A stretch of 64,000 nucleotides of DNA from Alphaproteobacteria bacterium. GTDB taxonomy: Bacteria > Pseudomonadota > Alphaproteobacteria > Reyranellales > Reyranellaceae. Position 1 is the stretch's first letter, and every line of letters begins with the position of its first letter. A model generated the notes under the pieces. The model was not told the origin of the DNA, did no database searches, and saw only the letters and a list, made by a program, of their open reading frames with translations. The stretch lies in the NCBI GenBank assembly GCA_019635875.1, contig JAHBYP010000002.1, positions 310,001 through 374,000 of the forward strand, read 5' to 3'. Shown here piece by piece: positions 42,670-48,612 of the stretch. The position numbers and the translations under genes are program-made.

Positions 42670-43161
42670 ATGATCAAGTTTGCGCGCATATGGGGTGTCG
42701 GCTCGCTCGTTGGCATCGCCGGCATCCTGATCGGCTTCAGCGGCGCCACGCCGGCGCTCGCGCAGGACAAGCCCGTCGAGTGGAAGGCCACGTGCCTCTG
42801 CGAGAGCGGATTGAACCAGCAGTCGATCACGGCGATCATCGAGATCAACGACCGCAATCGCGAGGCCTACGGCAAGCAGATCCTCGGCGGCGGGGCCGAG
42901 CTGCGGGCGACCGTCACGTTGGTGGGCGGTGCCTGCACCTGGCCCAGAGGTTGCGGCAAGACTTCGTCACGCAAGCCCAAGGGCGACGGCACGTTCATCA
43001 GCGAGACCGTCGACAACAAGACGATCCAGGGCACCTTCCGGGTCCGGATCAACGGAACCGGCGACATTCCTCGCAAGACCGTCGATGGCAAGCGCATGTT
43101 GGACGAGGAACGCTGGAAGACAGCCAAGGTCATCAGCATCACGGGCCTCAAGCAGCCCTGA
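42670..43161 (+). CDS. Secreted protein of unknown function
   Basis: A 163-residue protein with a signal peptide (hydrophobic core about 10-25, cleavage at ALA-QDKPVEW). The mature part looks like an immunoglobulin- or lipocalin-type beta sandwich with four cysteines (CLC near 42, CTW and CGK near 97-103), likely forming disulfides in the periplasm. I recognise no family. ATG 42670 follows GGGGGAGACGG. It converges with the selenoprotein gene; only 19 bases separate the stops. Confidence 0.75.
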   Translation: MIKFARIWGVGSLVGIAGILIGFSGATPALAQDKPVEWKATCLCESGLNQQSITAIIEINDRNREAYGKQILGGGAELRATVTLVGGACTWPRGCGKTSSRKPKGDGTFISETVDNKTIQGTFRVRINGTGDIPRKTVDGKRMLDEERWKTAKVISITGLKQP

Positions 43162-43180: not shown

Positions 43181-43942
43181 TCAGCCGTCCCAGACGTTCT
43201 GTGGCATCGGCAGCCTGGCGAAATCGGCGTCACCCAGCGGGGGCGCGTGCGGCACGCCCTCGCGTTCGAGCAGCATCATCCATTGGCGTACATGCTGGCC
43301 GCAGTGCCAGGTCGTGCGCTCGAACAGCTCATGCATGGTCTGCGGGCCGTAATAGGTGTCGAGCGTGCCCGTGCCGTCGCGGTCCGACGTCTTCGCCCAC
43401 CAGGCGTCGAGCCGTTGCCTCACCTGGGCACCGTAGTCGGCGACCCATTCCATGGTGGCGTCCTCGGCCGGCACCTCGCGGAAGGCGTCCTGCACCAGGG
43501 TGATGCCGTCGATCGCGTCGAGGAAGGCCGCGACCACCCGGAACATGTGGAACGACAGGTGGCGGTAGCTGCGCGGCCGGCCCGGAACGTGGATGTCCAG
43601 GCGGTCGGCCGGCATCAGCGGCAGGAGCGCGATGGCCGCGTCCATGAACCTGTCGAGCCGCGCATGCAGCTCGGCCGGCGTCAGGTCGGGGCTCGTCTTC
43701 TCGTCCAGGCCGACGAACTCGACGATCGCCTTCAGGCTCTGGGCGTAGGTGTACTTGTCGCCGCGCGAGAGCACCGGCACCGAGCGCGCGCCCAGCGCCT
43801 TGAGCTCGGCCAGGCCGGCTTCGTCATCGAGCACATTGACGGATACATAGTCGACCGCACGGGCCGATAGAAACTCCTTGAGTCTCAGGCAGCTGGTTCA
43901 ACCAGGCTGCCAGAAAACCTTGAAGGGAGGCTGGGTCTGCAT
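43181..43942 (-). CDS. Glutaredoxin-DinB fusion selenoprotein (in-frame UGA = Sec15)
   Basis: A 253-residue protein if UGA at 43900-43898 is read as Sec. ATG 43942 has GGAGGG close upstream and the frame begins QPPFKVFWQPG, then UGA, then TSCLRLKEFLSARAVDYVSV. This is a glutaredoxin first strand and active site with Sec at the first Cys of CxxC (U15-T-S-C18), and ARSVPVLSRG supplies the cis-proline. From about residue 90 a DinB-fold four-helix domain follows, with candidate metal histidines in YRHLSFHMF and TTWHCGQHVRQW. A 17-nt hairpin starts 11 nt after the UGA. Gene callers would begin at an internal start (43834) and lose the redox centre. The substrate is unknown; mycothiol/bacillithiol-S-transferase-like chemistry is known for some DinB proteins. 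Confidence 0.85.
43870..43886 (-). promoter_or_regulatory. Bacterial SECIS hairpin of the glutaredoxin-DinB gene
   Basis: On the minus strand GAGACUC-AAG-GAGUUUC forms seven pairs (one G-U) with a 3-nt loop containing G. Exactly 11 nt (43897-43887) separate it from UGA 43900-43898. This is the size and spacing of the minimal bacterial SECIS upper stem-loop and matches the other hairpin in this window in geometry but not sequence. Confidence 0.8.
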
Positions 43943-44128
43943 GGTGCCCTCCGGGGTCGCCCAGGAGCCTCGCGCGCCGGCGGCGGCGGCGCAAGCCACT
44001 ATCCCTTGTGTTTTCGGCGTCCCTGCCCCACTTCCAGACCGGCCCGGCGGTTGCGGCGGCGGCCCGATCCCGCTACACCCCGCGCGCCCCCTTGATCCTG
44101 AACCCCGGCCACGGAACCCCAGCCCGCG

Positions 44129-46419: not shown

Positions 46420-47292
46420 TCAGCGCACACGTGCGAGCAGACGCCGCGCCCGCTCGGCTACTGGCAGGTCGATCATCGCGCCCTCGAAGGCCACGGCGCC
46501 CTGCCCGTCCGCGACCGCAGCGTCGAAGGCCGCCAGCAGCCGGCGCGCGCGATCGGCCTCGGCGACGCTCACCCCGTATTCTTCATTGATGATCGGCACG
46601 TGCAGCGGGTGGATGCAGGCGGTGCAGGCGAAGCCCAGGCCGCGCGAGCGCTTCAGGCTCTCGCGATAGCCCTCGAGGTCGGAGAAATCGGCGAAGCGGC
46701 CGACCGAGCCCAGCGGCAGAATGCCGGCGCCGCGCGCCGCCGCCACCACCATCATGGCGTAGACATAGAGCGCGTCGCCCGTCGGCGCGCCGCCCAGCTC
46801 GGTCGACAGATCCTCCGCGCCGATGCCCAGCGCCACGACCCGCGGATCGGCCGCGGCGATGGCGCCCAGCGACGGCAGCGCCTCGGGCGTCTCGACGATG
46901 GCGATGAAGCGCGTGTGGCCGGGCTTCAGCCCGAGCGCCGCCTCGCGCACGGCGACGATCTCGGACAGCAGCTTGACGTGCTCCGGCCCCATCACCTTGG
47001 GCAGCATCAGCGCGGCCACGCCGGGCATGATCGCCGCGGCGATGTCGGGCACCGACATCTCCATCGGCCGGTTGATGCGCACCACGACATCGGCGCCGGC
47101 CTGGGCCACGGTCCCGGCCGCCTCGGGCAGCGCGCGGCGCGCGAGCTCCTTCTCGTTGGGCGCGACCGAATCCTCGAGGTCGAGGATGATGGCGTCGGCG
47201 CCGCGCGTGTGCGCCTTGGCGATGAAGTTCGGCTTGGTCGCCGGCACGAACATCAACGAGCGCCAGGTCGGCAGGTCGGGGCGGGGCGGCAT
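46420..47292 (-). CDS. HpcH/HpaI-type CoA ester lyase (CitE-like), probable citramalyl-CoA lyase
   Basis: A 290-residue TIM-barrel lyase that splits beta-hydroxyacyl-CoA esters. RSLMFVPATKPNFIAKA, DAIILDLEDSVAPNEK (acidic metal residues), VVRINRP, MLPKVMGPEHV, AIVETPEAL (Glu ligand) and GAEDLSTELG (Asp) are the CitE/citramalyl-CoA lyase pattern. ATG 47292 has GGGAG about 8 bases upstream; ATGs at 47310 and 47307 are alternatives. With the CaiB and MaoC genes upstream on the same strand it would convert citramalyl-CoA to acetyl-CoA and pyruvate. Confidence 0.9.
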   Translation of the reverse strand: MPPRPDLPTWRSLMFVPATKPNFIAKAHTRGADAIILDLEDSVAPNEKELARRALPEAAGTVAQAGADVVVRINRPMEMSVPDIAAAIMPGVAALMLPKVMGPEHVKLLSEIVAVREAALGLKPGHTRFIAIVETPEALPSLGAIAAADPRVVALGIGAEDLSTELGGAPTGDALYVYAMMVVAAARGAGILPLGSVGRFADFSDLEGYRESLKRSRGLGFACTACIHPLHVPIINEEYGVSVAEADRARRLLAAFDAAVADGQGAVAFEGAMIDLPVAERARRLLARVR

Positions 47293-47315
47293 TCGGAGGA
47301 CTCCCATCAAGCAGA

Positions 47316-47413
47316 CGTCATCCCGAGCGAAGCGAAGGATCTCTCGGTGCGACGACCAAACGGAGGCGTTCGTCTTCGAACACCGCCGGGTCCTTCGCTG
47401 CGCTCAGGACGAC
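47316..47413. repeat. Intergenic inverted repeat, family B copy 2 (long, diverged)
   Basis: CGTCATCCCGAGCGAAGCGAAGGATC on the left and GGTCCTTCGCTGCGCTCAGGACGACGA on the right are imperfect inverted arms around a longer than usual centre (about 45 bp). It lies between the CitE and CaiB genes, and the last codons of the CaiB gene run into its right arm. Confidence 0.75.
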
Positions 47414-48612
47414 GAAAAGGCATGCGCCGCGCCCGATGCGATCATCGAGTCGATCTCCTCGCGCGTGTAGCCGATCTCGGCCAGCACGTCGGCGGTGTGC
47501 TCGCCCATGACCGGCGCGTGGCGTTCGTCGCTGCGCGCGCCGCCGGAGAAGGTGTTGGCCACCCGGGTGCGGCGGATCCTTCCCTGCGAGGGATGCTCCT
47601 CGGCGCGGAAGAAGCCGACATCGTCGAGATGCGGATCCGACAGCAGATCGTCGATCGAGTTGTAGCGCGCGGCCGGCACGTCGAGCGTCTCGAAGATCGC
47701 CAGCCATTCGGCCGTGGTCTTCTGCGCCAGGCCCTCCATGCGCACCTTGAAGTAGGCCGCGGCATTGGCGGTGCGCGAGGCGGCGCTGTCGAAGCGCGGA
47801 TCGGTCTTGAGCTCGGGCCGGCCGATGGCGTCGAAGAAGGCGAAGGCCTGCGGGTTGGTGTTGGGCCCGACGGTGATGTAGCCGTCTTTCGTCGGCAGCG
47901 GCCGGTAGTCGGGGCTGAGCAGCCTGCCGTCGCCAGTGGGCCCGACCGGCGGATCGAAGGTTGCGGCGCCGAGATGCTCGCTCATCACGAAGGAGGCCAT
48001 GTTCTCGAACATCGGGACGTCGATCGCCTCGCCGACGCCGGTCTTCTCGCGGCGATAGAGCGCGAAGCCGATGCACTGCGCGGCGATCAGCCCCGTCGTG
48101 TGGTCGGTCATCACCATGGGCACGAAGCGCGGCTCGCCGATGGCGCGCTCGAAGGTGCCGGCGACGCCCGACAGCGACTGCACGATGGGATCGTAGGCCG
48201 GCCGGTTGAAGTAGCGGCCGCCGCGGCCGAAGGCGAGGATCGAGCAATGGATCAGGCGCGGGTTGTCCTTCGACAGGCTGGCGTGATCGAGCCCGGCGCG
48301 TGTCAGGCCCTCGGGCCGCACGTTGCTGACGAAGACATCGGCGCCCGCGATCAGGCGGCGCATCGCTTCGATGCCCGGGGCCTGCTTGAGGTCGAGGCAG
48401 ATCGAGCGCTTGTTGCGGTTGAAGTTGATGAACTTGCCGGACATGCCGGGATGGCGGCTGCCCTGCGCCATGGTGCGCAGCAAATCGCCGCCGGGCGCCT
48501 CGACCTTGATCACGTCGGCACCCTGGTCGGCCAGGGTGCGGGTGCAGATCGGCCCGACGACGACGGTGGTGAGGTCGACGACCCGCACGCCGTCAAGCGG
48601 CCCGCCGGTCAT
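47404..48612 (-). CDS. CaiB/BaiF-type (family III) CoA-transferase, probable itaconate/mesaconate CoA-transferase
   Basis: A 402-residue family III CoA-transferase. The nucleophilic aspartate is D141 in NRPAYDPIVQSLSG. LDGVRVVDLTTVVVGPICTRTLAD opens the Rossmann half (cited by ends), and LDLKQAPGIEAMRRLIAGADV follows as in formyl-CoA and succinyl-CoA transferases. It overlaps the family B repeat at its 3' end, so the last few residues (AFSSS) are repeat-derived. Placed between genes for a MaoC hydratase and a CitE lyase, it fits activation of itaconate or mesaconate, with succinyl-CoA as the usual donor. Confidence 0.9.
   Translation of the reverse strand: MTGGPLDGVRVVDLTTVVVGPICTRTLADQGADVIKVEAPGGDLLRTMAQGSRHPGMSGKFINFNRNKRSICLDLKQAPGIEAMRRLIAGADVFVSNVRPEGLTRAGLDHASLSKDNPRLIHCSILAFGRGGRYFNRPAYDPIVQSLSGVAGTFERAIGEPRFVPMVMTDHTTGLIAAQCIGFALYRREKTGVGEAIDVPMFENMASFVMSEHLGAATFDPPVGPTGDGRLLSPDYRPLPTKDGYITVGPNTNPQAFAFFDAIGRPELKTDPRFDSAASRTANAAAYFKVRMEGLAQKTTAEWLAIFETLDVPAARYNSIDDLLSDPHLDDVGFFRAEEHPSQGRIRRTRVANTFSGGARSDERHAPVMGEHTADVLAEIGYTREEIDSMIASGAAHAFSSS

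Follow-up and report, generated by a model that had tools for sequence, protein, structure and literature searches.

A predicted selenocysteine-containing glutaredoxin–DinB fusion protein in Reyranellaceae and other Alphaproteobacteria

Introduction

Does an in-frame UGA near the 5′ end of a minus-strand gene in a Reyranellaceae genome (GenBank assembly GCA_019635875.1, contig JAHBYP010000002.1) close a reading frame, or is it decoded as selenocysteine (Sec) in the active site of a glutaredoxin (Grx) fused to a DinB-type domain? The gene lies in the 64,000-nucleotide stretch of DNA analysed here, hereafter the window (positions 310,001 to 374,000 of the contig; G000:C2:310001-374000 in our coding of genomes and contigs). 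A preliminary description, made from the letters of the window, had favoured the second answer and had pointed to a hairpin just downstream as a minimal bacterial SECIS.

Both halves of the proposed protein have well-studied relatives. The Sec glutaredoxin (PF00462, with a UxxC active site) is an experimentally verified selenoprotein family (PMC13188914), and the DinB/STL superfamily includes metal-dependent bacillithiol, mycothiol and glutathione S-transferases (PMC10950700), relatives that transfer thiols with the help of a metal and conserve three His residues (PMC5815605; PMC10950700)—H67, H160 and H164 in the metal site of BstA/YfiT (PMC5815605).

Materials and Methods

Homologues were sought using tblastn, with UGA read through, in 101 near genomes (61 from the same family). 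Some genomes were fetched twice from two collections, and the 69 loci with TGA correspond to 51 distinct 75-nt sequences. Hairpins were compared with the published rules for bacterial SECIS elements: a loop of 3–9 nt with G in one of its first two positions, a stem of 4–16 bp, a spacing of 16–37 nt and a minimum free energy ≤ −7.5 kcal/mol (PMC13188914).

Results

The window sequence bears out the gene structure given in the preliminary description: the opening ATG 43942, the GGAGGG ahead of it, the in-frame TGA and, beyond it, 238 open codons ending at TGA 43183-43181 (Table 1). From the ATG, the minus strand reads MQTQPPFKVFWQPG up to the TGA, which as codon 15 stands in the context VFWQPG-U-TSCLRLKEF. 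Standard annotation had been expected to begin at 43834 and so to delete the active site; a mechanical ORF caller did pick GTG 43834, opening a frame at 43181-43834 from which the active site is lost, and the gene is prone to misannotation of this kind.

Table 1. Features of the grx-dinB locus and the Sec decoding genes. Positions are those of the window, except for the sel genes, which are placed on contig C2.
Feature	Position	Strand	Evidence or remark
grx-dinB, predicted selenoprotein gene	43181..43942	minus	253 residues with U15; homologues full length on both sides of the TGA
Ribosome binding site GGAGGG	43947..43952	minus	4 nt 5′ of ATG 43942; sequence
UGA codon 15, putative Sec, first position of UxxC	43898..43900	minus	TGA in 69 loci, TGC/TGT in 11, same column
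Cys18, putative resolving Cys of UxxC	43889..43891	minus	invariant
First-noted hairpin GAGACUC-AAG-GAGUUUC	43870..43886	minus	lineage-specific, possibly accessory
SECIS candidate hairpin UCGGCC-CGUGC-GGUCGA	43851..43867	minus	RNAalifold, pairing, covariation; loop begins 36 nt past the UGA
Glutaredoxin domain, residues 7-80	43703..43924	minus	Pfam PF00462, E 7e-10; U15, C18, Pro56 (cis-Pro position)
DinB/S-transferase-like four-helix domain, residues 89-245	43208..43678	minus	Pfam DinB_2 in 32/35 members; fold match
His132, putative metal ligand	43547..43549	minus	invariant
His213 and His217 (HxxxH), putative metal ligands	43292..43306	minus	invariant; YfiT-like pattern
selA	C2:265623-266732	minus	E 3.5e-156
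selB	C2:263492-265375	minus	457 bits (cut-off 242); E 1e-136
selC	C2:263159-263250	plus	72 bits; ARAGORN: tRNA-SeC, anticodon TCA (UCA)
selD	C2:282513-283421		E 6e-79

The Grx-DinB protein was found in 56 of the 101 near genomes, 55 of which carry it with exactly one internal TGA; within the family itself, this single in-frame TGA is present in 54/61 genomes, and named relatives with the TGA form include Reyranella massiliensis, R. aquatilis, Vineibacter terrae and Desertibaculum subflavum. A class-wide sample (385 genomes) contributed further TGA forms from families coded f13, f55, f68, f81, f94, f96 and f114, as well as stop-free forms from f27, f31, f58, f59, f82, f88, f126 and others. Outside the class, the phylum sample yielded no Sec form, and neither did 368 genomes of another class.

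When the loci were read base by base, the 69 with a stop all had TGA in the same column, codon 15, with neither TAA nor TAG among them, while the alphaproteobacterial loci without TGA had TGC or TGT there in 11 out of 11 cases. Plasmid homologues from Roseomonas, Variovorax, Caballeronia and Rhizobium likewise have Cys (5/5 checked). A column without a conserved Cys had been named in advance as grounds for doubting the proposal; instead, the homologues keep Cys at this position, and on these alignments UGA 43900 is where the predicted catalytic Cys of the homologues stands. Two genomes, G053 and G364, each hold a Sec copy plus a Cys paralogue; the paralogues (G053:C372:1398-2141 and G364:C25:5253-6014) share about 40% identity with the window protein.

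Absence of the Sec decoding genes had likewise been named as grounds for doubt; selA, selB, selC and selD were all found, on the same contig as the window and within about 50 kb upstream of it. The minus strand carries selA and selB as neighbours, and selC follows on the plus strand immediately beyond the 3′ end of selB; the three lie some 43–47 kb upstream of the window. The genome holds a second Sec gene on contig 8, encoding a formate dehydrogenase of the FdhG type with the motif VUHGPTVSSLGPTFGRG (G000:C8:102984-103760); its presence alongside the four sel genes indicates that this genome decodes UGA as Sec. Across the class sample, 13 of the 14 genomes bearing the TGA form have a selB match that clears the cut-off, versus 3 of the 13 that bear only the Cys form (Fisher p 3.4e-4, indicative only because the genomes are not phylogenetically independent), the one exception, G072, being 77% complete. 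Among the near genomes, selB accompanied the TGA form in 53/55, the exceptions being G033 (89% complete) and, again, G072.

Applied to the distinct Sec sequences, RNAalifold identified a hairpin of consensus UCGGYC-CGUGN-GRUCGA at offsets 33–49 from the first base of the TGA, which in the window is 43867-43851. Across the 51 sequences, every one of the 306 cells in its six-pair stem holds a standard pair, with compensatory changes (U-A to C-G, U-A to G-C, G-U to A-U and G-C to G-U), whereas in Cys forms just 38% of cells are paired and the stem is fully paired in 0/11; when the partner strand was slid as a control, pairing fell to 62% or less. In 18 diverse rows, none of 5,000 shuffles, which ignore relatedness, matched the observed pairing or covariation. 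Counting from the U, codons 11–14 (TCG or GCG, NNC, CGT, GNG) have third positions that never change among the Sec sequences; among the Cys sequences these positions vary and the amino acids SVRG are not retained either, which argues that the constraint acts on RNA.

The window hairpin falls within the published SECIS rules, with a 6-bp stem, a 5-nt loop (CGUGC, G second), a spacing of 36 nt—close to the top of the published range—and −7.6 kcal/mol in 22 nt. All four rules hold for 44 of the 51 distinct sequences; the other seven miss the −7.5 kcal/mol threshold and so fail on energy, as stem and loop G are present in all 51. Rfam gave only chance-level matches in the region. A search with the hairpin pattern returned one perfect match in the genome, the grx-dinB copy; matches with one mismatch occur at G000:C5:351875-351891 and G000:C8:225835-225851. 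From its pairing and covariation, we consider it very likely that the candidate hairpin at 43867-43851 is the SECIS.

The window protein matches PF00462 with 39.4 bits (cut-off 22.9), as do all 35 members of a diverse homologue set, its Grx domain lying nearest to YruB, NrdH and mycoredoxin-type profiles. It scores 24.0 bits against DinB_2, just below the curated cut-off of 24.8; across the homologues, 32/35 match at E ≤ 0.01 (best 1.1e-8). Residues invariant over the 35 proteins are W11, U/C15, S17, C18, P56, H132, W181, Y197, G199, R209, H213, Q216, H217, R219 and Q220, within which H132...H213xxxH217 repeats the H67/H160/H164 pattern of YfiT. An AlphaFold2 model built with 35 sequences has a mean pLDDT of 95 and a pTM of 0.90. 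Foldseek matched its DinB domain to 6iz2 (DR0053 DinB/YfiT; TM 0.81) and 2p1a (0.76, target-normalised) with probability 1.00, with further matches to 2f22, YfiT (1rxq) and the mycothiol-dependent maleylpyruvate isomerase MDMPI (2nsf), and its first domain to 3zit, a thioredoxin-like protein of Grx/NrdH size (TM 0.88).

Multiple independent gains of Sec were considered and set aside: the free tree of 45 proteins needs at least two Sec/Cys changes, yet a topology with all Sec forms in one clade is not rejected (p-AU 0.295), which, together with a homologous SECIS, suggests one or few Sec/Cys transitions within Alphaproteobacteria.

Gene neighbours were also set aside as a clue to the substrate, which they leave unconstrained, as no neighbour of grx-dinB is conserved among 21 stretches. 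Cys homologues sit in differing catabolic or transport clusters, with aromatic dioxygenase, TPP enzyme and acyl-CoA genes in Variovorax SRS16 and amidase and isochorismatase genes in Roseomonas. Near grx-dinB, genes for a CitE-like (HpcH_HpaI) lyase and an adjoining family III CoA transferase occur in the window (46420-48612, beyond lepA) and again in a genome of another family (G346, L123:10132-12278), a recurrence that could be due to chance because both families are common. On the plus strand at 42670-43161, convergent with grx-dinB, the window encodes a small secreted-looking protein of 163 aa with a signal peptide-like start and no Pfam match.

Discussion

The paired Sec and Cys forms, the TGA in multiple families, the sel genes, the co-occurrence with selB and the covarying hairpin all uphold the central proposal of the preliminary description, Sec at the first UxxC position of a Grx-DinB fusion: judged from sequence comparison, grx-dinB almost certainly encodes a selenoprotein, with Sec predicted at residue 15. 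If the UGA were instead a genuine stop, with a shorter DinB protein made from GTG 43834 by a pseudogene or after N-terminal truncation—as the mechanical ORF call implies—that start would halve the Grx fold, but every Sec form read retains the first Grx strand and the active-site motif, the stop never differs from TGA or leaves the Cys column, and the Sec forms track selB; we hold this reading to be very improbable. The chance that the TGA is a sequencing or assembly error, for which nothing speaks beyond the general possibility, is negligible given its recurrence in more than half of the near genomes, isolates and metagenome-assembled genomes (MAGs) alike; the many independent genomes effectively exclude this third ground for doubt named at the outset.

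The choice of SECIS is where the preliminary description needs amending. The 17-nt hairpin that it placed 11 nt past the TGA is present, at 43886-43870, and could be the operative SECIS of the selenoprotein: it is stable in the window sequence, and its perfect 7-bp stem is 100% paired in all 36 Reyranella-like sequences. However, the stem is not kept in more distant Sec homologues, where 15 sequences have 51% of cells paired, the same level as slid controls, and the loop lacks G in its first two positions. Intact in close relatives only, this hairpin is an improbable candidate for that role and is probably not the conserved SECIS, although it may contribute locally; the conserved hairpin is its downstream neighbour. 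The selenoprotein and the SECIS at 43867-43851, taken together, make a combination that we regard as likely, with good confidence.

Under this combination, SelB would bind the hairpin at 43867-43851 and insert Sec at codon 15. With less certainty, the DinB domain would bind a divalent metal through His132, His213 and His217, and the metal would activate a low-molecular-weight thiol (glutathione, GSH) to add to an electrophilic substrate, exchange with it or isomerise it, after which the U-x-x-C selenol would resolve the mixed disulfide or thioether, or re-reduce the product. GSH is the likely thiol partner because the genome encodes the glutathione synthase GshB. We see about an even chance that the protein is a metal enzyme of this kind, a thiol-dependent transferase or isomerase whose selenol is redox-coupled.

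A plainer role, that of a general disulfide or peroxide reductase of Grx or mycoredoxin type in which DinB contributes no metal catalysis and acts only as a structural part or as an adaptor for the substrate, is plausible and somewhat less probable; Sec-Grx enzymes with UxxC are known as redox enzymes (PMC13188914), and the profiles closest to the Grx domain point the same way, but the DinB domain keeps its three His and an RTxWHxxQHxRQ-like motif with little or no variation across the 35 diverse sequences, beyond what would be expected of a passive adaptor. A further reading, which we think rather unlikely, joins the Grx selenol and the three-His metal site of DinB in one composite active site: the metal would activate GSH, or a different thiol, on an electrophilic metabolite, and the conjugate would be cleaved directly by Sec15. 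Were this true, the protein would be an isomerase or reductive transferase that depends on selenium, uses a thiol cofactor and is complete in itself, and we know of no enzyme of this type.

How new, then, is this protein? A 2026 inventory of 119 prokaryotic selenoprotein families has Sec-Grx, Grx-like and UXX-star proteins and no DinB or Grx-DinB entry, Grx-DinB is not among the new families in the main text of deep-Sep, and no model in NCBIfam release 20 scores over its cut-off for the window protein. Among the published papers searched, none reports a Sec Grx-DinB or Sec in any DinB/STL-domain protein. The family would thus be an addition, widespread in Reyranellaceae-like and other alphaproteobacteria and missing from both inventory and NCBIfam, that would link selenium to metal-dependent low-molecular-weight-thiol chemistry; single genomes can hold a Sec copy beside a Cys paralogue and the division between the two forms follows selB, which makes the advantage of Sec directly testable.

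Among known systems, the Sec glutaredoxin shares Sec at the first Grx UxxC position and a bacterial SECIS downstream of the UGA (predicted here), but the Grx of the window protein is fused to DinB and is nearer in sequence to YruB/NrdH types. The UXX-star families (NF041212, NF041211, NF047338) and the HUGP/GUXX-star fusion (NF045501) have a small Grx-like domain in common with it, yet their weak matches (best 27.9 bits) are all far under cut-off (66–325 bits) and span the Grx domain only, without DinB. With BstA/YfiT, mycothiol S-transferase and maleylpyruvate isomerase, the shared features are the four-helix bundle and H...HxxxH; to our knowledge, these named DinB/STL proteins carry neither a Grx domain nor Sec. 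Closest are the Cys-form Grx-DinB proteins of Roseomonas, Variovorax, Caballeronia and Rhizobium plasmids, annotated as ‘DinB family protein’ or ‘glutaredoxin domain-containing protein’, which have the same two-domain architecture end to end at 30–43% identity; Cys forms differ in having Cys for Sec, and the SECIS hairpin is missing in the 11 chromosomal ones tested. Set against these systems, the predicted protein is a new selenoprotein family in which the known Sec-Grx module is joined to a DinB domain.
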